DNA of 64,000 nucleotides, taken from NCBI RefSeq assembly GCF_013201075.1, contig NZ_CP053708.1, positions 3,539,501-3,603,500 on the forward strand. The letters run 5' to 3'. The translations under genes were made by a program, and so were the position numbers. Shown piece by piece: positions 32,292 through 62,890 of the stretch (position 1 is its first letter; every line of letters begins with the position of its first letter). Source of the stretch: Lichenicola cladoniae. Its GTDB lineage: Bacteria > Pseudomonadota > Alphaproteobacteria > Acetobacterales > Acetobacteraceae. The notes under the pieces are model-generated. The model searched no databases, was not told where the DNA came from, and saw nothing but the letters and a program-made list of their open reading frames with translations.

Positions 32292-34472
32292 ATGTCATTG
32301 ATCGCAATACTCGACGATCGTCTCACGAATAGGAACATCTACGCGCGCCTTGCTGCTGCTCTGGAGACCAATATCGAGGTGGTTACCTTCGATGACCCTC
32401 TGGTAGCGCTTGATCATCTGCAAACGGTGCAGCCCGACCTTGTCGTGACCGATTTCAAGATGCCGCATCTGGACGGCGCGGAGTTCACCAGGCGGTTCCG
32501 TTCCTGCCCCGGTTGCGCCGACATCCCGGTGGTCGTCATCACCGCCTACGATGACCGGTCGTTTCGCCTGCAGGCGCTCGAAGCGGGTGCCACCGACTTT
32601 CTGCAGAGCCCGGTGGACCATGCCGAGTTCATTACGCGCGGCCGCAACCTGCTCCGCATGCATCGGCAGCACCGCATCATCGAGACCCGTGCACGCGATC
32701 TAGAGCTGGAACTGAAGAACAGCGAGCTCTCGCACCAGAAACTGATGCGTGACAGCAGGGAAGCCCTTGCCCAGGTCATCGATACGGTGCCGGCCTTCAT
32801 CAGCGCGGCCGATCGGGACGGCCATATCGTGTTCATCAACGCGTCGCAGTCGGAACTGACCGACCACGGTGCACCCGATCGGCGCGTGCCTGACCAGTAC
32901 GCGGACCAGCCTGAAAGGCTCGGGTCCGGAGCCGTGTCGTTCGGCAATGACTACCAGCAACGCAGCCGGTCGCTGGATCTGCTTGTGTTCAAGAGTGGCA
33001 AGCCGTTGCAGGCCTTCGAACAGGAAGTCACCGACCAGCAGGGTCGGCGCCGGATCCTGCTCACCACGAAATCGCCGCTGCGGGACGGTTCCGGCGACAT
33101 CGGCAGCGTGCTGACCACCTCGCTCGATATCACCGAACGCAAGCGCGCCGAGCAGCACCTGCAGCATGTGGCCAGCCACGACCCGCTGACCGACCTGCCC
33201 AATCGGGCGCTGCTGCGCGAACGCCTGCAGCACAGGCTGTCGCGCGGCGGACGGGCCGAACGACTGATCGCGCTGCACTACCTGGACCTCGACCGGTTCA
33301 AGGAGGTCAACGACCAGATGGGCCATCATCTCGGCGACATCCTGCTGAAGACCGTCTCGGCCCACCTGATTGCCTGCGCCGGCAAGCAGGACACCGTGGC
33401 GCGCATCGGCGGCGACGAGTTCGCGATCCTGCAGACCCAGATCGACCACCCGGACCAGGCGGCCGAACTGGCGGCGCGGATCATCGCGCGGATCAGCCAG
33501 CCCTCGATGCAGAACGGCCAGGAGATCACGATCAGCGGCAGCATCGGCATCACCATCTTCCCGACCGACGGCACCGACACCGAGGAACTGATTCGCAACG
33601 CCGATCTGGCGATGTACCAGGCCAAGGCCGAGGGGCGGAACAGCTACCGCTTCTTCGTCACCGACATGAACGAGCGCATCAGCCGGATCCAGCGGATACG
33701 CCGGGAACTGCGCCAGGCGTTGCGCTCGAACGAGTTCGTGCTGCACTACCAGCCGCAGATGAACCTGCTGACCGGGCGCATCGCCGGGGTCGAGGCGCTG
33801 TTGCGCTGGAACCATCCGGTCGACGGGCTGCTGGCGCCCGGCGATTTCCTGGTCATCGCCGAACAGGGTGGCCTCGGTGGAGAGATCGACGACTGGGTGC
33901 TGCGGCGCGCCTGCCTCGATGCGATGATCTGGCAGAAGAACGGCCTGCAGCCGATCGCGGTCGGGGTGAACCTGTCACCCGTCCGGATTGGCACCCTGCG
34001 GACGCAGGAGTTGATCACCACCGTCCTGCACGAGACGGGCCTGGACCCGTCGTTGCTAGAGCTGGAGCTGACCGAACACGAGTTGGTGGACGATCTCGAC
34101 GCGGCGGCCCGGGTCCTGAACCAGATGCGCCTGCTCGGCGTCCGCCTCGCGATCGACGATTTCGGAACCGGCTACTCGTCGCTGAACTATGTGAGGAGCT
34201 TTCCGGTGAACCGCCTGAAGATAGACCAGTCCTTCATCAGGAACCTGCGCACCGACGTCAACGACGCGGCGATCGTCCGGAACATCATCAGCCTGGCGCA
34301 CGACCTGAACATCACCGTGGTGGCCGAGGGCGTCGAGACCGTCGAACAGCTCACCCACTTGGCCGGCGAAGGCTGCGACGAGATCCAGGGTTTCTATTTC
34401 AGCCGGCCACTGCCGACCGACGCGCTGCAAGCCATGCTCCGGCGCGAGCTCGCGTCTACCCATCTTGGCTGA
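32292..34472 (+). CDS. REC-PAS-GGDEF-EAL response regulator, DSF-locus output
   Basis: 726 residues. A receiver domain (~1-125) has phosphoacceptor D54 (VVTDFKMPHLDG). A coiled linker and a PAS domain (~155-285) follow, then GGDEF (intact motif at 373-377) and EAL (intact motif at 501-503, with LAIDDFGTGYSSL and VVAEGVET). It can in principle both make and break c-di-GMP; the RxxD inhibitory site is not conserved (residue 364 is Gly). It is followed 11 bp later by an RpfC-type sensor kinase and convergent rpfF, so it likely replaces RpfG as the phosphorylation-controlled output. The ribosome site is weak (GAGATG, 14 bases upstream). Confidence 0.93.
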   Translation: MSLIAILDDRLTNRNIYARLAAALETNIEVVTFDDPLVALDHLQTVQPDLVVTDFKMPHLDGAEFTRRFRSCPGCADIPVVVITAYDDRSFRLQALEAGATDFLQSPVDHAEFITRGRNLLRMHRQHRIIETRARDLELELKNSELSHQKLMRDSREALAQVIDTVPAFISAADRDGHIVFINASQSELTDHGAPDRRVPDQYADQPERLGSGAVSFGNDYQQRSRSLDLLVFKSGKPLQAFEQEVTDQQGRRRILLTTKSPLRDGSGDIGSVLTTSLDITERKRAEQHLQHVASHDPLTDLPNRALLRERLQHRLSRGGRAERLIALHYLDLDRFKEVNDQMGHHLGDILLKTVSAHLIACAGKQDTVARIGGDEFAILQTQIDHPDQAAELAARIIARISQPSMQNGQEITISGSIGITIFPTDGTDTEELIRNADLAMYQAKAEGRNSYRFFVTDMNERISRIQRIRRELRQALRSNEFVLHYQPQMNLLTGRIAGVEALLRWNHPVDGLLAPGDFLVIAEQGGLGGEIDDWVLRRACLDAMIWQKNGLQPIAVGVNLSPVRIGTLRTQELITTVLHETGLDPSLLELELTEHELVDDLDAAARVLNQMRLLGVRLAIDDFGTGYSSLNYVRSFPVNRLKIDQSFIRNLRTDVNDAAIVRNIISLAHDLNITVVAEGVETVEQLTHLAGEGCDEIQGFYFSRPLPTDALQAMLRRELASTHLG

Positions 34473-34497
34473 GGCCGGCCGTCTTGGCTGAGGCCGG
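34463..34497. repeat. 19-bp-period tandem duplication at the junction of the two signalling genes
   Basis: TCTTGGCTGAGGCCGG occurs at 34463-34478 and 34482-34497. The first copy contains the TGA stop of the GGDEF-EAL gene; the second contains the TTG start used for the kinase. One copy alone would place stop and start in overlap, so the duplication may have uncoupled them. Confidence 0.85.
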
Positions 34498-37072
34498 ACA
34501 GGCTCAGGGCTGGACTGCCGGCCGGGTGGCCGGGCTTCGCGCGATTGCTCAAGGTCTGCAGGCAAGGCTCCGGGAGCGGCCGGACCTGGAACACGAGATG
34601 GGCTTCAACCGGCTTATCTTCTGCGCGCTGATCGCGACCTACCTCTGGCTCGTTCCGTCCCCCGACATGTTTACGGGCCTACAGGCCTGCGCCGTCTACT
34701 TCGCGTTCGCGCTGGTGCTGATCACCGCCATGGTGCTGCAGCCGCGCATCTCGCACCCGCGTCGCATCGTCGCGATGATCGGTGACCTGACCGCGCTCGG
34801 CACGGAAATGCATATCAGCGGCAGCGCCAATGCCGGCTTCTATCCGCTGTATCTCTGGATCATCTTCGGCAACGGCTTCCGGTTCGGGCTGGGCTACCTG
34901 TTCCTGACGCTGGGCGTGGCGCTGGCGAGCTTCGGTGTCGTGGTCGCGACGACGCCCTATTGGTCCGGCAAGCCGATGCTGTCCGGCAGCCTGTTGCTGG
35001 CCCTGCTGGTCCTGCCCGCTTACGCGAGCGGCCTGATCCGCAAGCTTTCGGAGGCCAAGCGTATCGCCGAGGAAGCCAATCGCGCAAAGAGCCGGTTCCT
35101 CGCCAATGTCAGCCACGAACTCCGCACGCCGCTGAACGCCATCCTGGGCTCGACCTCGTTGCTCCGGGGTACGCCGCTCGAGGCGGAGCAGCGCGAACTG
35201 ACCGATGCCCTCGATGTCGGGACCCGGGCGCTGCTGTCGCTGATCGGCGGCATCCTCGACTTCTCCCGGATCGAGGCGAACCGGATGCCGCTGCGGCTGG
35301 AGCCGTTCGACCTGCCGGACCTGCTGGCGGACATCCGCGAACTGCTCGGCCCGCAGACACGCCTCAAGAACCTCCGGCTGCGCTTCCATGTCACGCAGCG
35401 CGTGCCGGAAATCATCCGGACCGACCGCCGCCATCTCCACGAAGTGCTGCTGAACCTGGCAAGCAATGCCATCAAGTTCACCTCGGCCGGCGAGGTCATG
35501 ATCTCGGTCGATGCCAGGCCGTGCGGTCCGGAGCGTCTACGCTTCCGCTTCGAGGTATCGGACACCGGCATCGGCATCAGGCAGGAAGCGCGCGAACGCA
35601 TTTTCGAAAGCTTCACCCAGGCCGAGCCGACCATCATCGACCGCTTCGGCGGCACCGGCCTCGGCCTCACCATCGCGCGGCAGCTGGTGACGCTGATGGG
35701 CGGCACGATCGGCGTCGAGAGCGTTTTCGGCGAAAGCAGCACGTTCTGGTTCACCATCGAGTGCGACGAGGTCGTTGCCGCAACCACACCGACCGATCAG
35801 ATGGCGATTCCAAACATCCGGGTGGTGCTGCTCTGCGACGATGCGCTCATGGGCGGACGCATCAAGCGGCAACTGGAAGCACTCGGACTGGAGGCCGAGC
35901 GCGCGTCGGATGAGCCGGACGCGCTGGCACGGCTGGCACGGAAGCCGAACGCGGGCGTCCGTCTCCGAACCCTGCTTCTGCTGCAGCGTGACAGTCTGCA
36001 TCCGGCGGCTACGCTCGACGAGGAGACCGGCCGTTTCCTCGGTTCCGCGGACGTGCCGATCATCGGCGTGGCGACACTCGCGGAGACCGGCCCGCCGGCC
36101 GACATCGCGATCCGGCGCTATGTCGGAACCTGGATCTCGCAGCGTCCCGATCCGGCCGAACTTCGCGCCGCCCTCCGCAAGGTGGCCGCCAGGCCGGAAC
36201 AGCACGCGGAACCGGACAGCGTAGCTGGATCGAATGCGGTTCCGAAACGAAGCCTGCATGTGCTGGTAGCAGACGACAACGACATCAATCTCCGTGTCGT
36301 CGCGAAAGTGCTGGAACGCGCGGGTCATTCGATGCGGCTGGTCAGGAACGGCGTCGAAGCGCTCGACGCACTGGAGCAGGAACGGTTCGACATTGTCCTG
36401 ATGGACGTCAACATGCCGGTCATGAACGGGATCGAGGCCACGAAACTCTATCGCTTCGCGTCGCTCGGCGAGCCACGCGTACCGATCGTGGCGCTGACGG
36501 CAGATGCGACGCAGGAGACAGAGCGCGACTGTCTTGAAGCAGGAATGGATGCCTGCCTGACCAAGCCGATCGAGGTGTTTCGGCTCGCCGCCGCACTGGA
36601 GCGCATCGCGCATCCGGCCGCCCCCCCGGCGTCTTCGCAATCGCATCGGTCATCATCCGCGGCGATGCTGCCGATCAGGCAGGTGCCGCAGCACCCGATT
36701 TTCGATGACGAGATGCTGGATAACCTTCGCACACTCGGCGGCGAGGAGTTCCTTGACGAAATGGTCGCAAGCTTCGCCGGCGATGCGGTCCTGCTGGCAG
36801 GCAATATCGCCGGTGCGGCGCAGGATGGCGACCTGCTGATGTTTCGCAGCGAGATCCACGCGCTGCGCAGCTGCGCCGCGAACGTCGGCGCGCTGGCGAT
36901 CCAGGAAGCCTGCAAGTCGTGCCGCGACGTCGGGCCTGCGGAACTGCAGACCCGCGGCGTCGAGTTGGCACGACGCGTAAGCGACGAGGTCGTTCGATTG
37001 GAAGGGGCGGTGGCGCAGTCCCCAAATCGGTACCTGCGCACGCCATCCGCAGCGAGCGAGCTTCCGACATGA
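34484..37072 (+). CDS. rpfC: RpfC-type hybrid sensor histidine kinase (DSF sensor)
   Basis: 862 residues. A short cytoplasmic N-terminus ends in 'RPDLEHEMGFNRLI', then five membrane helices (~40-185) with 'LQPRISHPRRIVAMIGD', 'WIIFGNGFRFGLGYLF' and 'TPYWSGKPMLSGSLLL'. These closely follow Xanthomonas RpfC as I recall it. Next are HisKA (H211, SHELRTP), HATPase (N-box NLASNAIKF, G-box DTGIGI), a degenerate receiver (~443-570, no acceptor Asp), a true receiver (D641) and a C-terminal HPt (H792, EIHALRSCAANVGA). It should relay phosphate to the REC domain of the upstream protein when DSF is sensed. The TTG start at 34484 is tentative; a GTG at 34526 is also possible. Confidence 0.9.
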   Translation: MAEAGQAQGWTAGRVAGLRAIAQGLQARLRERPDLEHEMGFNRLIFCALIATYLWLVPSPDMFTGLQACAVYFAFALVLITAMVLQPRISHPRRIVAMIGDLTALGTEMHISGSANAGFYPLYLWIIFGNGFRFGLGYLFLTLGVALASFGVVVATTPYWSGKPMLSGSLLLALLVLPAYASGLIRKLSEAKRIAEEANRAKSRFLANVSHELRTPLNAILGSTSLLRGTPLEAEQRELTDALDVGTRALLSLIGGILDFSRIEANRMPLRLEPFDLPDLLADIRELLGPQTRLKNLRLRFHVTQRVPEIIRTDRRHLHEVLLNLASNAIKFTSAGEVMISVDARPCGPERLRFRFEVSDTGIGIRQEARERIFESFTQAEPTIIDRFGGTGLGLTIARQLVTLMGGTIGVESVFGESSTFWFTIECDEVVAATTPTDQMAIPNIRVVLLCDDALMGGRIKRQLEALGLEAERASDEPDALARLARKPNAGVRLRTLLLLQRDSLHPAATLDEETGRFLGSADVPIIGVATLAETGPPADIAIRRYVGTWISQRPDPAELRAALRKVAARPEQHAEPDSVAGSNAVPKRSLHVLVADDNDINLRVVAKVLERAGHSMRLVRNGVEALDALEQERFDIVLMDVNMPVMNGIEATKLYRFASLGEPRVPIVALTADATQETERDCLEAGMDACLTKPIEVFRLAAALERIAHPAAPPASSQSHRSSSAAMLPIRQVPQHPIFDDEMLDNLRTLGGEEFLDEMVASFAGDAVLLAGNIAGAAQDGDLLMFRSEIHALRSCAANVGALAIQEACKSCRDVGPAELQTRGVELARRVSDEVVRLEGAVAQSPNRYLRTPSAASELPT

Positions 37073-37121
37073 AGCCGCTGGCTGTCGGGAGACGGACGCT
37101 TGATCACCGCGTTCCCGCGCC

Positions 37122-38099
37122 TTATTCGGCCGCTACGGCATGGGCCGGCTCCATCGCCATCAGCCGGCGCCGCTGTGCCGCGACCAGGCGCTCCATCTTG
37201 CGCAGGTCGGGCTCGCCGAGCTGCAGCGCGGCATCGACCCAGATTTCGACCACGTCGCGCAGTTCCTGCTCGGTGATCGCGTTGACACGGCGGCGCGCGC
37301 GCAGAAGCGCATGATGTGCGTTGAACTTGCGACTGTTGCGGGCGATGTAGTTCCGGACCGTCAGGACGCCCTCGCCATCTTCGGCAAGCACGTCGACGAC
37401 ACCCATCGCATGCAGTTCCTCGCCGGTGTAGAGGCGGCCGGACATGATCATCGCTTCTGCACGTGCGGCATCGAGCCTGCGTCGCAGGAAGCTATAGGCG
37501 CCCATGCCCGGAAACAGGTTGAACAGCACCTCGGGGAGACCGAGCTTCGCGCTGCGCTCGGCAACCAGCACGTCGTAGGACAGAGCGCTTTCGAAACCGC
37601 CACCGAGTGCGTCGCCCTGCACGAGCCCGATGGTGATGATCGGCTGGTGGAAGGCGACGTGATTGTTGAAAATCACGTCGATGCAGAGGTGCGCGTAGTC
37701 GCGCAGCACGGTCTCGTCGCGCTCGCGGATACGATCGGCGAACAGGGCCAGGTCGCCACCAAGATTATAGATGCCGGGAATATCCGAGCCGAACACGAAA
37801 TACTGGACCGGATCCTGGTTCCGGGCGATCTGGCGCTCCCGCAGGGTCCTGACAACGCCATGGGTCGACAGAACGTCGCGCAACAATGGCGGAGTGACCC
37901 GGACGGTTCCATGACGCAATTGCATCATGCTCCAGAACGTCCGAGCATCGGGATCATAGCGGTTTGCCAGATGATCGAAATCCACGACCGCATGATGATC
38001 GTCGCTCCCGCCGAAGATCGGAGAGGCATAAGATGCTCCGGGCTGTTCGGTCGTATCGAGCGCGCTGAAATGCTGGGCCTGCTTATTGATAAAGGTCAC
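37122..38099 (-). CDS. rpfF: RpfF-type crotonase, DSF-family signal synthase
   Basis: 325 residues from a GTG at 38099 with AAAGGA seven bases upstream; an ATG at 38174 is longer. A crotonase-fold enzyme matching RpfF in 'YNLGGDLALFADRIRERD', 'IGLVQGDALGGGFESAL', 'GLPEVLFNLFPGMGAYSF' and 'EIWVDAALQLGEPDLRKMERL'. The two catalytic glutamates sit at E170 (GGGFE) and E190 (GLPE), 20 residues apart as in Xanthomonas. RpfF acts as dehydratase and thioesterase on 3-hydroxyacyl-ACP, releasing cis-2-unsaturated fatty acids. The N-terminus is ~35 residues longer than in Xanthomonas. It is convergent with the sensor kinase gene (49 bp apart). Confidence 0.92.
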   Translation of the reverse strand: MTFINKQAQHFSALDTTEQPGASYASPIFGGSDDHHAVVDFDHLANRYDPDARTFWSMMQLRHGTVRVTPPLLRDVLSTHGVVRTLRERQIARNQDPVQYFVFGSDIPGIYNLGGDLALFADRIRERDETVLRDYAHLCIDVIFNNHVAFHQPIITIGLVQGDALGGGFESALSYDVLVAERSAKLGLPEVLFNLFPGMGAYSFLRRRLDAARAEAMIMSGRLYTGEELHAMGVVDVLAEDGEGVLTVRNYIARNSRKFNAHHALLRARRRVNAITEQELRDVVEIWVDAALQLGEPDLRKMERLVAAQRRRLMAMEPAHAVAAE

Positions 38100-38138
38100 G
38101 GCACAATCCTTTTGTAGATGCTGAGCGTTGCGAATACA

Positions 38139-38161
38139 GACGAACCCAGGCGCGGTTCGTC
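38139..38161 (-). promoter_or_regulatory. Perfect 8-bp inverted repeat in the rpfF leader
   Basis: GACGAACC (38139-38146) and GGTTCGTC (38154-38161) are exact reverse complements separated by 7 bases, 40-62 bp upstream of the rpfF GTG. It could be an operator or a leader hairpin controlling signal synthesis. Confidence 0.5.
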
Positions 38162-38265
38162 CATGCAACCCCAACAGTGTGTGCCGTCTTGGTATCCCCC
38201 CGCTACATCCTTATTCAGTTAACGTTACTGTCACGCAGACTTATCTCTATTTTTAGATACGGACG

Positions 38266-38313: not shown

Positions 38314-39438
38314 TCAGCGGGCAGCTAGATCGACGACCGCCATCCTTCCGTTTTCGCAACCAAAGGCCAGCAACGTTCCGGCGGGATTGAACGCCAGTGC
38401 ACTGACCGAACTGCTGCCTCCGCCGTCGCCCGGACCGCATACCGGCAAAACCCTTTTCGTCGCGACATCGGACATCAGGACAGTGCCATCGGCGAAGCCG
38501 GCCGCGACCAGTTCATGCTGCGGATGGAACGCGACGCGGGTGCACATCGAATTCGGCGCACCGGCCAGTTCGACCGGCGGCTTGCCCATCGGCCCGCCGC
38601 CGAAGAACGGCCACAGCACCACCACCTCGGCGCCACTGGTGGCGAGCCAGCGCCCGTTGCGGGAGAAGCTGAACGACTGGGTCTTCTGCGGATAACCGCT
38701 CATGCGCATGTTGTGACTGTCGGACAGCCGCCAGCCATGCAGCTCGTTCTCCTGCATCGCAGTGACCACCGCCTCGCCGTCGGGGTGGATGGCGATGCCG
38801 ATATGGCTGCCCTTCCAGGTCAGCAGGCGCGGCGTGTCGGATCTCGAGTTGGCGAACCAGATCGAGGCGCCGTTATAGTGCGAGGCGGCGATCCGCTTGC
38901 CTTTGGCGTCGAAGGCAATGCCTGAGACCGTGCTGTCGTGGTCGAGCGTCCTGAGCAGCTTGCCCTCGGCGTCGCGGAGTTCGACCTGCTTGCCGACCGC
39001 GGAGGCGATCAGGCCCTTGCCGCCATCGCTGCCCGGGCGTTTCGCCGAACCCGGCTTGTCCTCCGAGAAACTTGCCACATGTTCGACCCAGCGACGGCCG
39101 CTGGCGAGCACGCTCGCCTCCAGGGTGTCGCCGTCGACACGGCACAGGCGGTTGTCGTCGCCGCCGGTCAGGAAGCCACGGCCGGCGATGTCTGGCGCCA
39201 GGCCGAGAATTGCACCGTCATGCGCTGCCGCCACGCGCCAGTTGCCGCCGCTGGCAGGAGACGATGCGAGATGCAGTTCGCCCTCGCCGGTTGCGAAGGC
39301 GGCCAGGCTACCATCGCGCGAGAATGCGCATCCGAGCACGAACGCATCGACCGTATGGGTGATGCCACGCGTCCGGAGCAGATGGTCGGGATCGGACAAA
39401 GCTGCCTCCATGGCCGCGTCTCCTGTGGAAGTGCTCAT
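38314..39438 (-). CDS. WD40-repeat beta-propeller protein
   Basis: 374 residues with about seven WD40-type blades, e.g. 'VLGCAFSRDGSLAAFATGEGELHLAS', 'SGIAFDAKGKRIAASHYNGASIWFA' and 'TRVAFHPQHELVAAGFADGTVLMSD'. No signal peptide is visible. Its ATG overlaps the stop codon of the upstream CobW-family gene by 4 bp, so translation is coupled. As I recall, this CobW-WD40 pairing recurs in alphaproteobacteria, suggesting the propeller is a partner or target of the metallochaperone. Its molecular role is unknown. Confidence 0.9.
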   Translation of the reverse strand: MSTSTGDAAMEAALSDPDHLLRTRGITHTVDAFVLGCAFSRDGSLAAFATGEGELHLASSPASGGNWRVAAAHDGAILGLAPDIAGRGFLTGGDDNRLCRVDGDTLEASVLASGRRWVEHVASFSEDKPGSAKRPGSDGGKGLIASAVGKQVELRDAEGKLLRTLDHDSTVSGIAFDAKGKRIAASHYNGASIWFANSRSDTPRLLTWKGSHIGIAIHPDGEAVVTAMQENELHGWRLSDSHNMRMSGYPQKTQSFSFSRNGRWLATSGAEVVVLWPFFGGGPMGKPPVELAGAPNSMCTRVAFHPQHELVAAGFADGTVLMSDVATKRVLPVCGPGDGGGSSSVSALAFNPAGTLLAFGCENGRMAVVDLAAR

Positions 39439-40439
39439 CGGGCGCGGCAGCTCTCGAAGCCCCGGCGAAGACGGGGTCGGTTCAGGTTGCGACCGATGAA
39501 CACCAGCCGCGACGTCCGCGCATCGTCTGGCTTCCAGGCGCCGATGAAATCGCCATCGGCCATCATGTGGACGGCCTGGAACGCGAACCGGCGGTTCTCG
39601 CCGGTAAAGCTCAGGATGCCCTTGGAGCGCAGGATGTCGCCGCCCTGTTCCTGCAGGAGTGCCCCGATCCAGGCCTGGAACTTGCCCTGGTCGAGCGGCT
39701 CGTCGACCTCGAACGACAGGCTGGTGATGTCCTCGTTATGACTGTGGCTGTCGTTCTCCAGGAAGTCCGGCGCGACCTCGAGTGCCCGGCCGAGGTCGAA
39801 GCCGCCCTGGTCCAGCACGTCTGTGATCGGCACGTTGCCGCGCACCGCGCGATGCAGCCTGACGAACCGGTTGATGCCACGGATCCGCTCCTCGAGCGCC
39901 ACCAGCGTGGCCTCGTCCACCAGGTCGGTCTTGTTCAGTACGATGACGTCGGCGAACGCGATCTGCGTCCGCGCCTCGGGACTGTCCTCGAGCCTTGCGG
40001 GCAGGTTCAGCGCATCGACCACGGTCACCACCGCATCGAGGCGGGTGCGGGCGCGGATATCGTCGTCGACGAAGAAGGTCTGGGCGACCGGCGCCGGGTC
40101 GGCGAGGCCGGTGGTCTCGACGATGATGCCGTCGAACCTGGTCCGGCGCTTCATCAGCGCGCCCAGGATGCGGATCAGGTCGCCGCGCACGGTGCAGCAG
40201 ATGCAGCCGTTGTTCATCTCGAACACTTCCTCGTCGCTCTCGACGACGAGGTCGTTATCCACCCCGAGCTCCCCGAACTCGTTGATCACCACCGCATATT
40301 TACGGCCGTGCTGCCCGGTCAGGATGTGGTTCAGCAGCGTGGTCTTGCCGGCGCCGAGATAGCCGGTCAGCACGGTGACCGGGACCAGGCCCGGCTCGGC
40401 CACTGCCTGTTCTCTGGGATCGGTCATCGCGTCAGCCAT
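39435..40439 (-). CDS. CobW/COG0523-family G3E GTPase (metal chaperone)
   Basis: 334 residues from ATG 40439 (MADAMTDPREQ); an ATG at 40427 is an alternative. Walker A (LTGYLGAGKTTLLNH), the metal-binding CxCC (NNGCICCTVRGDL), ETTGLADP and the NKxD motif (VLNKTDLVD) are intact. A His-rich stretch (ENDSHSHNEDI) precedes the C-terminal CobW_C domain (GILSFTGENRRFAFQAVHMM). Members insert or sort Zn or Co. It overlaps the O-antigen ligase-like gene at its start (8 bp) and the WD40 gene at its stop (4 bp). No Zur box was recognised. Confidence 0.93.
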   Translation of the reverse strand: MADAMTDPREQAVAEPGLVPVTVLTGYLGAGKTTLLNHILTGQHGRKYAVVINEFGELGVDNDLVVESDEEVFEMNNGCICCTVRGDLIRILGALMKRRTRFDGIIVETTGLADPAPVAQTFFVDDDIRARTRLDAVVTVVDALNLPARLEDSPEARTQIAFADVIVLNKTDLVDEATLVALEERIRGINRFVRLHRAVRGNVPITDVLDQGGFDLGRALEVAPDFLENDSHSHNEDITSLSFEVDEPLDQGKFQAWIGALLQEQGGDILRSKGILSFTGENRRFAFQAVHMMADGDFIGAWKPDDARTSRLVFIGRNLNRPRLRRGFESCRAR

Positions 40440-41811
40440 GTTGTTTCTCACTGTCCGTGTTGGCCTGGATATAGGCGGCGCCTGCAGTCTGCACAGGGGA
40501 TCGGGCTATCCCGGACGCTTCTGCCAGCCCTGTTCCCAGGAGCAGGAAGAACCATCCGCCGAGCGGCATGTTGGTGAATGCGCTGGCCGATGCGATCGGC
40601 CATTCATGGATGAACACCGCGGCGAACAGGCCGACCCGCCAGGCCTGCCGCGTTCCGCCCGCGCCCTGGGCCAGGCCCCGCCCGAGGGCGACGAGCCAGG
40701 CAACCACCATGGCGCAGAACATCGCCAGCCCGATCAGGCCGGAGTCGGTCAGTGCCTGCAGAACGTGGTTATGGGCGTGCTGGACGCAGATCGCGGCACC
40801 ACCGCCACTGCCGTTGTTCAGGCTCCAGGGGGGCCAGTCCTGGAAGTAGGCGGGTAGCGGGCATCCGTTGCGGAAGCCGTCGAAACCGAGCCCAGTCAAC
40901 GGGTTGGCGATCGCGATGGCCAGCGCTCTATTATAGATCAACCCGTACGGGCTGTTCGGGAAGTCATGCATCTGCGTGCCGAAGAGCACTACCAGGTGCT
41001 TGAAGCTGTGCGGCGAGACGAACGCGCTGATCGCGATCAGCACCGGCGCCGCGGCAAGAGCCGCCAGCAGCGGCAGCCGCAGCCGTCGCAGCACCAGCCC
41101 CGACACGACCAGGCCGAGCAGCACCAGCAGCATCGGCATCCGCTGGCCCGCCAGCACCATCACGGCGAGCCCCGCCAGCAACGGCAGCACCGAGGCCGCA
41201 AGCAGCCACCAGCGAGAATGGCGATTCGTGGACCCGGCGCGGTCGGCAATCCAGGTGCTCGCGACCAGCATCACCGGCAGCAGCAGGCGGGACAGCGGCG
41301 CCGAGGCACGCGGCTTGTCGTATGGGCCGGTCAGGGTACCGTCGTGGAAGCGGGGATCGCCGAACAGATTGTAGCCGGTCACCGCCTGCAGCAGCAGTTG
41401 CGCCGCGATGTACAGGCAGGCAGCCACGAGCAACCCGCGCATGAGCCGGCGGGACCGCGGGTCCGACAGCACCCCATGCTGGAGCGCCGCCACGAACACC
41501 AGGAACCGCAGGGTCGCAAGTGCCTGGCCGAAATCGGGCCAGCCGCCGATGCCGAATGGCCCGACGGGCAGCGAGCACATGACGAGCCAAAGCCACCAGA
41601 ACAGCGATACGGGCACCCAGCGCGTTCGCAACCAGAGCCAGTCATGGCTGATGGCGGATCGCAGCAGGAAGGCAGTGGCGGTGATGTCGATCATCGCCTC
41701 GGCAATCCCACGGCCATGCACCAGGAAGACCGGACACAGCAGTGCCGCGACGAGACACAGGCGGTCGAGCAGGCGGATCGCCGTGGGACGGGACAGAGAG
41801 GGTGAAGACAT
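40432..41811 (-). CDS. O-antigen ligase/polymerase-like membrane protein
   Basis: About 459 residues from ATG 41811 (MSSPSLSRPTAIRLL). Ten or more hydrophobic helices are seen, with a large periplasmic loop in the C-terminal half containing 'NPLTGLGFDGFRNGCPLP' and 'CVQHAHNHVLQALTDSGLIGLA'. The G-x-G-x-x-x-F ... H-x-H-N-x-x-L pattern is that of the Wzy_C/WaaL O-antigen ligase domain. It joins or polymerises surface polysaccharide at the periplasmic face. It follows a GT4 gene in the same direction, 11 bp apart. Confidence 0.88.
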   Translation of the reverse strand: MSSPSLSRPTAIRLLDRLCLVAALLCPVFLVHGRGIAEAMIDITATAFLLRSAISHDWLWLRTRWVPVSLFWWLWLVMCSLPVGPFGIGGWPDFGQALATLRFLVFVAALQHGVLSDPRSRRLMRGLLVAACLYIAAQLLLQAVTGYNLFGDPRFHDGTLTGPYDKPRASAPLSRLLLPVMLVASTWIADRAGSTNRHSRWWLLAASVLPLLAGLAVMVLAGQRMPMLLVLLGLVVSGLVLRRLRLPLLAALAAAPVLIAISAFVSPHSFKHLVVLFGTQMHDFPNSPYGLIYNRALAIAIANPLTGLGFDGFRNGCPLPAYFQDWPPWSLNNGSGGGAAICVQHAHNHVLQALTDSGLIGLAMFCAMVVAWLVALGRGLAQGAGGTRQAWRVGLFAAVFIHEWPIASASAFTNMPLGGWFFLLLGTGLAEASGIARSPVQTAGAAYIQANTDSEKQHG

Positions 41812-41822
41812 CGGCACAGGGG

Positions 41823-42932
41823 TTAGCGCGAACGCGGTATCCAAGGAAATGACGCCAGTGCGTCATGGCGAAGGGTCCGCAGCCGGGCGCGGGCTTCCGG
41901 TAGGTCGAATCCGCGGGCACGGGCAAGCCCCGCCCCGGATAGCCGTGCACGTTCGGTCTGGCCATGACCGAGCCGCAGCAATGCGGCTGCCAGCGTTTCG
42001 GGCCGATCGGGATCGATCACCAGGGCCGCATCGGCCACCAGTTTGGCAAGGCCGCCACGCCCGGAGCAGACCAGGGCCGCGCCGCAGGCCATCGCCTCCA
42101 GCGCGGTCATTCCGAACGGCTCCATCCACCGGCTCGGCACGACGACGATCGCCGCCCGCGCCATCGCCTCCAGCACAGCGGCATGCGGCTGGTAGCCCGC
42201 GAGCGTCACGCCGGCCCGTCCGGCCGCCGGACGCAACGTGGCCAGGAACGGTGTATCGGCCGCGCCGTGATGAAAACGGTCGGCGCCGATCATCTCCGCA
42301 CGCCAGCCGGGCAGCGACGGCAGCACCTGCGCGCACGCGGCGACGAAGCTGTCGGCGCCCTTATCCGCGACCAGCCGGCCGGCGAACAGGATCAACCGCT
42401 CGCGTGCCTCGGCGGGACGGGGCGGTGGCAGCGCTGCCAGATCCAGGCAGTTGGGCAGGAGCCCGATCGTGACGCCCGGCCCCACGCCCTCGAGGAAGCG
42501 GCTGCGCAGATAGTCCGAGACCGCGACGATCCGCATCCGCCCGGCCAGCGCCCGCCGGGCCCGCGGCGACCGGGCGCCCCGCATGTCCTGCGGGTCGTTA
42601 TGGAGGAACAGGCAGACGGGAATGCGCGGCAAGCGTCGGGCCAGCATCGACGCGACCTCCGGCCGGTTTTGAACCTCGATCAAATCCGGAGGTGTCGGCG
42701 CCAGCATCCGTGCGGCGGCAGCGGCATAACGGGCACCCCCACCTCGGACGAACGGGTCACGTGGCCAATCCGGCGCCTGCACCGGCCAGAAGTGCCGGTC
42801 GGCGAATGGTGCCTGCGACAGCTTCCGTCCGAGGATCAGGTCCTGCGGGTCCGACAGCCGGTGCACCAGCAGCCCGATGGCGCCGACCGCATCCGGCGAG
42901 AAACCCTCGCGCGGCGGCAGCACGATCGCCAC
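41823..42932 (-). CDS. Glycosyltransferase family 4 protein
   Basis: 369 residues from GTG 42932 (MAIVLPPREGFSPDAVGAIG). A GT-B fold enzyme: 'LIEVQNRPEVASML', 'RLILFAGRLVADKGADSFVAAC' and the C-terminal nucleotide-sugar site 'VVPSRWMEPFGMTALEAMACGAALVCSGRGG', with the E-x7-E glutamates. It probably adds a sugar to lipopolysaccharide or a capsule precursor, given the ligase-like gene immediately downstream. An upstream non-ATG start cannot be excluded. Confidence 0.9.
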   Translation of the reverse strand: MAIVLPPREGFSPDAVGAIGLLVHRLSDPQDLILGRKLSQAPFADRHFWPVQAPDWPRDPFVRGGGARYAAAAARMLAPTPPDLIEVQNRPEVASMLARRLPRIPVCLFLHNDPQDMRGARSPRARRALAGRMRIVAVSDYLRSRFLEGVGPGVTIGLLPNCLDLAALPPPRPAEARERLILFAGRLVADKGADSFVAACAQVLPSLPGWRAEMIGADRFHHGAADTPFLATLRPAAGRAGVTLAGYQPHAAVLEAMARAAIVVVPSRWMEPFGMTALEAMACGAALVCSGRGGLAKLVADAALVIDPDRPETLAAALLRLGHGQTERARLSGAGLARARGFDLPEARARLRTLRHDALASFPWIPRSR

Positions 42933-60322: not shown

Positions 60323-62890
60323 ATGTCGATATCGACCGGTAGCGACCTCAGGACACGATCGCAGCATGGCTGGACGGCTCCGGACCCGTGTGCCGACAGC
60401 CATCTGGACATGCTCACGCGCGTTGCCTGCGAAGCCTTACTCATGCCGATGGCGATGGTGAACCTGTTCGACGGCGACCGGCTGGCCGTCGGCTCGGCGT
60501 TCGGACTCGGGGCCCGCGAGACCGACCTGCAGGATCCACCCTTCTGCCGGCACGTCATGCGGAGCGACCAGAAGCCGCTGATCGTTTCCGATGCATGGGC
60601 GGATCCGCACTACGCCACCAGTGCGCTGGCGGCAGGCTGTCTCGGGGTGCGCTTCCAGGCGGGCACGGCCATTACCGATGCAACCGGGCAGACCCTCGGC
60701 ACCCTGTGCGTGTTCGATACTCGCCCACGTCACCTGGACGAGCATGCCATCGGCATCCTGCTCGACCTGGCGGCCACCGTCGCAGCCAGGCTCGATTTCC
60801 ATCAGGTGAAGGCGGCGTTCGAGGAGAGCGAACTGCATTACCGTCACGCACTGGAGCTCAATCCGCAGATGCCGTGGACCGCATCCGCGGACGGGATCGT
60901 CGATGAAGCGAGCCCGCGCTGGCGAGCCGTGATGGGCGAGCCGGCAGACAAGGCGACGCCACTCGGACGCTGGGCATCGGGGTTTCATCCTAACGAGACC
61001 ATCGACGTCATGGCCGCATGGTGGAAGTCGGTGAAGGATGGCACGCCGTACGACATCCAGTGCCGCCTCCGTACCGGCGGTGCGATCTATCGGTGGTTTC
61101 GCATCCGTGCCGCTGCGAGACGCGATGACGACGGCCACATCGTGCGCTGGTACGGAACCACCGAGGATATTCACGACCAGAAAACCACCGACCTGGCCTT
61201 GGCCGAAAGCGAGCAGCGGCTGCGCTTCGCACTCGAGAATGCGAAACTCGGAACCTGGGATCTCGATCTCGCCAGCGGACATCTGAAATCCTCTCCGCTC
61301 TTCGCCGCGTGCTTCGGCTTCGAACGGGTGGACGAGGAGACCGGCCATCAGCAGCTTCTGTCGATGCTGCATCCGTCGGACGGGGCCGTCCGGCGCGACG
61401 CGATCGAAGGCGCACTGGCGCGGCACGAGGATCTCTATGTCGAGTATCGTATCATCTGGGCCGACGGCAGCACGCACTGGGTCAGGATCACCGGCCACGG
61501 CATCTACGACCGGGCCGGCAAGCCGACGCGGATGACCGGCCTGGCGCTGGACATCACCGATCAGCGGCGGGACGAGGAAGACCGTGCCCTCGCGGAGGCA
61601 CGGATCCGGTATCTCGCCTACCATGATCCGCTGACCGGCCTCGCCAATCGCCGGCTTCTGCACGATCGCCTGAACGAAAGCGTATCCGACGCTCACGAAC
61701 AGTCCCGGCTGGCGCTGCTGTGCATCGACATCGATCAGTTCAGGGCGATCAACGACACGCTGGGGCACGACGCCGGCGACCGCCTGCTGCTGCATGCCGC
61801 CGACCGGCTGCGCGCCTGTGCCGGACCGAAAGACATCGTCGCCCGCTATGGCGGCGACGAATTTGCCTTCCTGGTCACGGATGCGCGCAACGACGCCGAC
61901 ATGGACCGGCTGGTGATTCGCATCCAGCAGGCGCTGGCGAAGCCGTTCGAGGTCGAGCAGCACACGGTCCTGCTGACCGGCAGCATCGGCATCGCATTCT
62001 CGCCGGACCACGCAGGCGATGCGGAGCAGCTGCTGCGCAATGCCGACGCTGCCCTCTACCGCGCGAAATTATCGGGACGAGGCAGCTCGCGTGTATTCGA
62101 AGCCGGAATGGACACGGTGATGCAGGCGCGCCAAGCCCTCAAGCTCCGGCTGCGCGATGCCCTGACCAAGAACCAGTTCAGGCTGTTCTACCAGCCGCTG
62201 GTCGACGTCGCGACCGGACGCGTCGACAGCTTCGAGGCGCTGCTGCGATGGCAGCATCCGGAACGCGGCCTGCTGGCACCGAGCGAGTTCATCCCCGCGG
62301 CCGAGGAAACCGGCTGGATCGTCGCAATCGGACGATGGGCGCTCCAGGAGGCGTGCCGCGAGGCCATGAAGTGGCCGAGTACGATCGGCGTCGCCGTCAA
62401 CCTGTCCGCGATCCAGTTCCGGTTCGCGACCCTGACCGCCGATGTCATCGGCGCCCTGGAACAATCGGGGCTACCCCCGAACCGGCTGGAACTGGAAGTC
62501 ACCGAGACCCTGCTGATCCAGGACAACGACACCAACACCTCGATCCTGGAGAGCCTGAGCGAACTCGGCGTGCGGATCGCGCTCGATGATTTCGGTACCG
62601 GGTATTCGTCGCTCAGCTACCTCCGCAGCTTCCGTTTCGACAAGATCAAGATCGACCGGTCGCTGATCACCACCCTGACCGAGCCGCCGGACAGCGATGC
62701 CGTGATGAACGCCATTGTCGGCCTTGGCCGGAACCTGGCGATCGCGACCACCGCCGAAGGTATCGAGACCGACGAGCAGTTCGCCCTGGTCCGTGCCTAT
62801 GGCTGCACGCAGGCGCAGGGCTTCCTGTTCAGCGAACCGGTGCCGGCCTCGGGCGTCTCCGGCCTGCTCGAGCGGCTCGGCAGCCGCTAA
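60323..62890 (+). CDS. GAF-PAS-PAS-GGDEF-EAL c-di-GMP turnover protein
   Basis: 855 residues, AGGACGG before ATG 60323. GAF (~28-160, 'DPPFCRHVMRSDQKPLIVSDAWADPHY'), PAS (~170-290), PAS/PAC (~297-420), GGDEF (intact, 510-514) and EAL (intact, 638-640, with LDDFGTGYSSLSYLRSF). No membrane segments are visible, so it senses a cytoplasmic signal. The RxxD inhibitory site is not conserved (residue 501 is Gly). Both catalytic motifs are intact, so net activity cannot be predicted. It is a single gene, divergent from the yellow-like gene. Confidence 0.94.
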   Translation: MSISTGSDLRTRSQHGWTAPDPCADSHLDMLTRVACEALLMPMAMVNLFDGDRLAVGSAFGLGARETDLQDPPFCRHVMRSDQKPLIVSDAWADPHYATSALAAGCLGVRFQAGTAITDATGQTLGTLCVFDTRPRHLDEHAIGILLDLAATVAARLDFHQVKAAFEESELHYRHALELNPQMPWTASADGIVDEASPRWRAVMGEPADKATPLGRWASGFHPNETIDVMAAWWKSVKDGTPYDIQCRLRTGGAIYRWFRIRAAARRDDDGHIVRWYGTTEDIHDQKTTDLALAESEQRLRFALENAKLGTWDLDLASGHLKSSPLFAACFGFERVDEETGHQQLLSMLHPSDGAVRRDAIEGALARHEDLYVEYRIIWADGSTHWVRITGHGIYDRAGKPTRMTGLALDITDQRRDEEDRALAEARIRYLAYHDPLTGLANRRLLHDRLNESVSDAHEQSRLALLCIDIDQFRAINDTLGHDAGDRLLLHAADRLRACAGPKDIVARYGGDEFAFLVTDARNDADMDRLVIRIQQALAKPFEVEQHTVLLTGSIGIAFSPDHAGDAEQLLRNADAALYRAKLSGRGSSRVFEAGMDTVMQARQALKLRLRDALTKNQFRLFYQPLVDVATGRVDSFEALLRWQHPERGLLAPSEFIPAAEETGWIVAIGRWALQEACREAMKWPSTIGVAVNLSAIQFRFATLTADVIGALEQSGLPPNRLELEVTETLLIQDNDTNTSILESLSELGVRIALDDFGTGYSSLSYLRSFRFDKIKIDRSLITTLTEPPDSDAVMNAIVGLGRNLAIATTAEGIETDEQFALVRAYGCTQAQGFLFSEPVPASGVSGLLERLGSR

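Follow-up and report, generated by a model that had tools for sequence, protein, structure and literature searches.

Does a three-gene locus of Lichenicola cladoniae encode a complete quorum-sensing system of the diffusible signal factor (DSF) type, familiar above all in plant-pathogenic xanthomonads, and if so, to which output is it coupled? The locus lies in a window of 64,000 nucleotides (contig NZ_CP053708.1; C1:3539501-3603500) within a 6.06-Mb genome of 8 contigs. An earlier reading of the bare sequence, here called the original prediction, had described an RpfF-type synthase, an RpfC-type sensor and a cyclic di-GMP (c-di-GMP) output protein, and had taken them for a self-contained DSF locus in an apparent Acetobacteraceae genome. 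The three adjacent genes were found as open reading frames where they had been placed (Table 1), and the assignment to Acetobacteraceae is correct in the sense of the Genome Taxonomy Database (GTDB). Based on homology, gene order, catalytic residues and co-occurrence, together with differences in the receiver and the sensor, we propose that the locus is a DSF-family signalling module with a rewired c-di-GMP output, a reading to which we assign a probability of about 0.7. The idea of a DSF module is supported by the RpfF clade, the synteny and the co-occurrence of the genes, while three points call for correction (the locus is one of many, the output is not an RpfG, and DSF is not established as the ligand).

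By sequence, the crotonase is RpfF-type. Its closest match in a phmmer search of the PDB was RpfF (3m6m, E 5e-55), followed by 7zq7 (crotonase/enoyl-CoA hydratase family protein), 6dgn (RpfF) and 5fus (putative enoyl CoA hydratase); these four matches stood far above the following crotonase (E 2.6e-16). The protein also passed the NCBIfam model PRK08788, scoring 360.8 bits against a cut-off of 177. A maximum-likelihood tree was built from 134 of 149 rows after removal of 13 duplicates and of L076 and L077, both broken at contig ends (the prefix L marks loci and G genomes), and an earlier tree held 119 of the 149; both came from short searches, carry support from the Shimodaira-Hasegawa-like approximate likelihood ratio test only, and gave long-branch warnings. 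Support values quoted here are starred unless stated. The RpfF set was split from the seven enoyl-CoA hydratases (ECHs) of the same genome with a support of 99 in the 134-row tree and 98 in the 119-row tree, and the window crotonase fell, as the original prediction would have it, on the RpfF side, together with PDB 3m6m and PDB 6dgn in the 134-row tree. Xanthomonad-like RpfF (100) and RpfR-type RpfF (99) formed separate clades of their own. In the 134-row tree the sister of the window sequence was the RpfF of G181, a genome of the same genus (99), and Microvirga was the nearest named genus by path; the eight-row set joining the window to Microvirga had a support of 96 in the 119-row tree and was unstarred in the 134-row tree. 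Within the alphaproteobacterial part of the 119-row tree Acetobacteraceae were intermingled with other families, a mixture that suggests horizontal movement of rpfF.

The original prediction had leaned on two catalytic glutamates 20 residues apart. E195 and E215 are indeed present, but they are not specific to RpfF: both occur in four of the seven other crotonases of the genome, which makes this argument weak. The best discriminating residues were M224 and W312, each found in 141 of 142 RpfF rows (the remaining row having a gap) and in none of the seven ECHs, three of which are gapped at the W312 position; G140 and L190 were nearly as discriminating, each occurring in one ECH. Equivalents of G86, L136, G138, E141, E161, M170, W258 and L276 of RpfF from Xanthomonas campestris pv. 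campestris (Xcc) are all present in the window crotonase. We take L136, M170, W258 and L276 to be further pocket residues. The other four are those named for the catalytic glutamate pair and pocket in a section of PMC9040811. Translation of rpfF probably starts at GTG 38099 rather than at the originally predicted TTG 38174, which would give 350 residues, because the homologue in G181 has an ATG at the former position.

The distribution of the three genes was surveyed in 397 genomes of the family and in the best 80 of at least 579 confirmed named loci. Since one contig may occur both among the named and among the unnamed loci, the two sets overlap, and the number of loci does not equal the number of independent genomes. 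With cut-offs of E ≤1e-20 for RpfF, 1e-8 for the RpfC input region and 1e-22 for the receiver, matches were found in 92, 91 and 98 of the family genomes, respectively, at least two of the receiver matches (G004, G148) being of another type. RpfF and RpfC input occurred together in 84 genomes, RpfF only in 8 and RpfC only in 7 (phi 0.89, Fisher 1.4e-67, relatedness ignored), and all three components were found together in 83. Among 40 stretches from family genomes, 22 held RpfF, RpfC and a protein with receiver (REC), PAS, GGDEF and EAL domains, 6 held RpfC and a REC protein without GGDEF-EAL (L045, L059, L062, L069, L070, L071), 2 held RpfC with no regulator within the stretch (L047, L055), and 10 had no RpfC input within the stretch. 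The last ten comprise L051, whose kinase is cut by the contig end, two contig-end fragments of G219, four stretches whose genomes carry RpfC on a different contig (G147, G223, G065, G034) and three (G382, and G143 twice) from genomes without an RpfC match. RpfF without an RpfC match was seen in G114, G143, G188, G257, G382 and G394, the kinase of G188 being cut by the contig end. The case of G347, another candidate for RpfF without RpfC, was weakened by a run of N (1876 of 2050 bases inspected) that occupies the place of rpfC.

All three genes were present in 60 of the best 80 named loci (56 convergent, 4 divergent); a further 7 had RpfC with another REC protein, and 13 had no recognised RpfC, 6 of them near contig ends. 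The genera include Roseomonas, Gluconacetobacter, Acidocella, Inquilinus, Microvirga and Ancylobacter, as well as Aureimonas, Pseudovibrio, Kaistia, Rhizobium and Stappia. When gene families recurring around 139 loci were counted, the three of the module appeared at 136, 101 and 84 loci, and the next family at 14. Order and orientation in the window are the same as in L091 and L092, whose RpfF passes the cut-off of the NCBIfam RpfF equivalog NF053515; the arrangement regulator > RpfC > < RpfF matches that of xanthomonad-like rpf clusters. Far from being peculiar to this genome, the locus belongs to a large alphaproteobacterial set. Variants of the arrangement were also seen: Inquilinus-type loci (L111, L135, L142) carry one or two extra receiver-less RpfC-like membrane kinases between rpfC and the regulator, and the RpfF of L142, a record titled Mycobacterium sp. 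KBS0706, groups with an Inquilinus record. At L105, L108 and L183, from other alphaproteobacteria, RpfF lies beside a REC-less GGDEF-EAL protein in an RpfR-like arrangement, with no RpfC input match within the stretch.

The output protein had been expected to act on c-di-GMP, and its GGDEF, EAL, DDFGTG and ELTE motifs are intact, while the RxxD of the I-site is lost (G in place of R). It is not, however, an RpfG. Xanthomonad-like loci have a REC-HD-GYP protein in the place of the regulator, and an HD-GYP query found none among the best 80 named loci. The receiver itself keeps the acidic pair, the phospho-acceptor D54 and T84, and has Ser106 where receivers have lysine. Across 106 receivers the acidic pair and the aspartate were invariant and the threonine was kept in 105. 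Lysine was found at its position in only 7 (L091-L095, L099, L100), each with an HD-GYP match, and was lacking in all 99 window-type loci, which have serine (89), threonine (7), alanine (2) or methionine (1) instead. As a control, 70 receivers drawn from 76 matches in the window's genome were examined: 67 have lysine, two end before the site and one has leucine. The output protein was the only receiver seen in that genome with serine and an otherwise intact site.

Two ideas about the history of the output protein were rejected. An origin from RpfR is not favoured, because its GGDEF-EAL part is closer to other GGDEF-EAL proteins from its own genome (41-45% identity with the nearest ten) than to RpfR. 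Seven window-type regulators showed 33-38% identity to one RpfR, in a match confined to their PAS-GGDEF-EAL part, and the output protein compared domain by domain with two RpfR gave 34-42%. In the congener G056 (L233; G056:C34, 7388-9544) the regulator is orphaned, rpfF and rpfC having no match; its receiver has HD as the acidic pair and its GGDEF reads GADEF, with EAL kept. That receivers decay wherever rpfC is lost is refuted by the orphan regulators of G215 and G247, in which acidic pair, aspartate and threonine are kept; G132 stops at a contig edge. At L166 and L185 the output protein contains a kinase-like part.

The kinase consists of a short N-terminal sensor, about five transmembrane helices, HisKA, HATPase, a degenerate receiver, a receiver and a weak HPt, with Pfam matches to HisKA, HATPase_c and Response_reg. 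Hydropathy over residues 39-185 showed four strong peaks and a fifth, weak one, the strong four placed as in a xanthomonad RpfC, and the first 190 residues share 32-33% identity with the input regions of RpfC and RpfH at the xanthomonad-like loci L091 and L092. An RpfC-type sensor is thus upheld for the input region, HisKA, HATPase and REC, and less clearly for the fifth helix and the HPt. The domain list of the original prediction was incomplete, since it had overlooked the degenerate receiver, or pseudo-receiver, between the HATPase and the receiver. This segment matched receivers of its own genome in hhalign with a probability of 96.3 (E 1.5e-9). The gap from HATPase to receiver, measurable in 108 of 111 RpfC, was 58-81 residues in L091-L094 and L099, 193-198 residues in L096-L098 and L100 (likewise outside the window-type class), and 171-209 residues in 98 of the remaining 99, the exception having 98 residues; the pseudo-receiver is missing from the xanthomonad-like RpfC measured. 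The best PDB match of the catalytic-to-receiver part was 6qrj (molecule named Hybrid kinase), which we take to be ShkA of Caulobacter. It likewise combines a histidine kinase, a degenerate receiver and a receiver, and differs in that the match begins only after the membrane domain of the window kinase. The pseudo-receiver of ShkA binds c-di-GMP.

Table 1. Features of the locus, in window coordinates.
Feature	Position	Strand	Remarks
Three-gene locus	32292-38174		Order regulator > RpfC > < RpfF; rpfF converges on the other two
Output protein, REC-PAS_4-GGDEF-EAL	32292..34472	+	726 aa; Pfam domains
RpfC-like hybrid histidine kinase	34484..37072	+	862 aa from TTG 34484; GTG 34526 also possible
Sensor stretch RPDLEHEM	34577..34600	+	Residues 32-39 of the kinase, equivalent to Xcc RpfC residues 15-22
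Degenerate (pseudo-)receiver in kinase	35813..36178	+	About residues 444-565; boundaries approximate
RpfF-type DSF synthase homologue	37122..38099	-	325 aa from GTG 38099

The route that follows, from signal and sensing through phosphorelay to the sign of the c-di-GMP response and its target, is inferred. RpfF would make a cis-2-unsaturated fatty acid from an acyl-acyl carrier protein precursor, and the signal would build up outside the cell, where the RpfC-like kinase would sense it with its short N-terminal hook and its membrane domain. The kinase would then autophosphorylate and relay the phosphoryl group from His to Asp, to His of the HPt and on to Asp54 of the output receiver, where phosphorylation would set the balance between synthesis by GGDEF and breakdown by EAL and hence the level of c-di-GMP. 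The receiver of RpfC may also bind RpfF and restrain it, as in Xanthomonas. The most concrete downstream target would be the BcsA-BcsB cellulose synthase: the sole PilZ match in the genome was a fused BcsA-BcsB cellulose synthase (G000:C1:1538741-1539031, L248), non-PilZ receptors not having been sought. A PAS-GGDEF-EAL query gave 28 matches in the same genome at E 1e-20, the output protein included, which leaves a private link between the module and cellulose a guess.

Several observations weigh against a DSF-family module of this kind. The crotonase scored 219 bits with NF053515, under the cut-off of 550, although this cut-off was reached in just 3 of 398 genomes of the phylum and so marks a narrow group. 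The HPt match of the kinase, at 21.8 bits, lies below the Pfam cut-off of 24.6, and no more than 41 of 111 RpfC fitted a strict HPt pattern; the context of the HPt histidine aligns by eye with that of a xanthomonad RpfC. With the switch lysine missing, activation of the output protein by phosphorylation is uncertain. In addition, relatives with a bare REC-PAS protein beside RpfC and RpfF (L059, L062, L069, L070, L071, L169, L178, L182) imply that c-di-GMP is not an obligate output. The genes rpfF and rpfC are found on separate contigs in 4 of 20 genera, and inspection of the rpfF neighbourhood revealed no rpfB-like gene. Lastly, the membrane-adjacent residues R15, D17, S18, E19 and Q22 of Xcc RpfC matter in DSF sensing, and every substitution of S18 except threonine weakened the response, as described in a section of PMC5391125. 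The window RpfC keeps R15, D17 and E19 and has leucine for S18 and methionine for Q22.

With two of these five residues changed, something other than DSF may be the ligand. The same circuit could then serve another signal, a related fatty acid that differs from DSF in chain length, branching or double-bond position and provides a private channel; we regard this as a serious possibility, if one short of even odds. Methionine at the Q22 position is widespread, occurring in 74 of the 107 RpfC aligned (four of the 111 were left out, having no recognisable H box), and serine or threonine at the S18 position is found in 62. The Asn-Arg pair directly after the sensor motif, common in alphaproteobacterial rows and absent in xanthomonad-like ones, points the same way, as does an RpfF clade distinct from both the xanthomonad-like and the RpfR-type clades. 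Retention of the three other sensing residues argues against a different signal, and the signal mix of the Burkholderia cepacia complex is ascribed to substrate supply and not to RpfF specificity (PMC4504480, in part). The receiver raises a separate question, namely whether it acts other than by ordinary phosphorylation, as a phosphate sink or docking site, the GGDEF-EAL part being set, as in RpfR or RpfS, by RpfF or a fatty acid at the PAS domain. Such a role would fit the uniform loss of lysine from window-type loci in a genome where nearly all receivers examined have it, the persistence of REC-PAS alone in several lineages, and the binding of DSF by the PAS_4 domain of RpfS reported in part of PMC4504480. 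It is made unlikely by the conservation of the acidic pair, the phospho-aspartate and the threonine, by the RpfC receiver and HPt region being kept, and by identities that give the PAS-GGDEF-EAL part no special tie to RpfR.

A bolder proposal, doubtful although not far-fetched, is that these loci represent a third architecture of DSF perception across Alphaproteobacteria, in which an RpfC relay, a lysine-less receiver and a PAS-coupled two-way GGDEF-EAL enzyme are combined. Since such an enzyme works in both directions, the signal could raise or lower c-di-GMP, opposite to the xanthomonad rule, and cellulose synthesis could switch on at high density. The lineages that keep REC-PAS alone imply that the core output may be binding of a fatty acid or RpfF to the PAS domain, and not c-di-GMP. 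A deflationary explanation would have the crotonase as a metabolic enoyl-CoA hydratase or thioesterase, the kinase sensing an unrelated cue and the neighbourhood being accidental. The missed NF053515 cut-off and the few genomes with RpfF and no RpfC match could be cited for it. An ordinary enoyl-CoA hydratase is nevertheless rejected in view of the split from the ECHs and the RpfF-type residues, and co-occurrence and a convergent order conserved across many families speak against chance adjacency; we consider this explanation highly improbable.

The DSF-family module with rewired output that we favour resembles the Xanthomonas RpfF/RpfC/RpfG system in several features: the synthase is RpfF-type, the hybrid kinase is RpfC-type and includes a receiver and an HPt region, a c-di-GMP protein bearing a receiver adjoins rpfC, and the order is convergent. 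It differs in four respects: REC-PAS-GGDEF-EAL replaces RpfG (REC-HD-GYP), the receiver lysine is lost, RpfC has an extra pseudo-receiver, and two sensor residues are changed. No rpfH or rpfB was seen beside the window locus. With the RpfF/RpfR system of Burkholderia and Cronobacter it shares an RpfF homologue and PAS, GGDEF and EAL domains in the output, whereas RpfR is itself a soluble receptor with an N-terminal region of its own and no REC, in place of the REC and RpfC found in the window; the RpfR-type RpfF, too, stands apart from that of the window. The rpfFCG cluster of Leptospirillum, as presented in part of PMC8357829, likewise unites a DSF synthase, RpfC and a regulator outside the xanthomonads, but has RpfG (HD-GYP) and a one-directional order.

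Two core read-outs of DSF signalling, RpfCG and RpfR, are described in a section of PMC4504480, and RpfC-RpfG is attributed to alpha- and betaproteobacteria according to KEGG in a section of PMC8895600. A survey of 83 acidophiles, including Acidiphilium, gives DSF systems in Leptospirillum and Acidithiobacillus (PMC9040811). In the corresponding part of a review of quorum sensing in acetic acid bacteria, N-acyl homoserine lactone systems are named and DSF appears merely in a list of signal types (PMC7889782), and the part of PMC10226988 consulted contributes no information about alphaproteobacterial rpfF/rpfC loci. Searches of the open-access literature brought up no study of DSF signalling for Acetobacteraceae, subscription literature being outside the scope.

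The G+C fraction at the edges of the locus (32-33 kb and 38-39 kb) is 0.61, compared with 0.64-0.72 elsewhere in the 25-46 kb interval. A promoter scan found 0 promoters and a PHROGs search gave nothing informative; a search for LuxI in the same genome had no match, and control genomes were equally without a match, so absence is not shown. Upstream of rpfF and on the same strand (38314-42932, minus) lie overlapping genes for a GT4 glycosyltransferase, a Wzy_C O-antigen ligase, a CobW GTPase and a WD40 protein. In the congener G219, rpfF is followed, in the order seen in the window, by genes for WD40-like and CobW-like proteins and by one more gene, the match having been tested for WD40 alone. 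About 15 kb separates rpfF from rpfC there (L076, L231; G219:C145), and its rpfF is split across two overlapping contig ends. A second GGDEF-EAL protein is encoded in the window at about 61568-62875 on the plus strand, with 43% identity to the GGDEF-EAL part of the output protein.

If the module works as proposed, a fatty-acid quorum signal would be common among alphaproteobacteria and would have a third read-out beyond RpfCG and RpfR. The uniformly lysine-less receiver would offer a clean case for receiver signalling without the switch lysine. For Acetobacteraceae, a working module would connect population density with c-di-GMP and, perhaps, with cellulose in a way open to testing.

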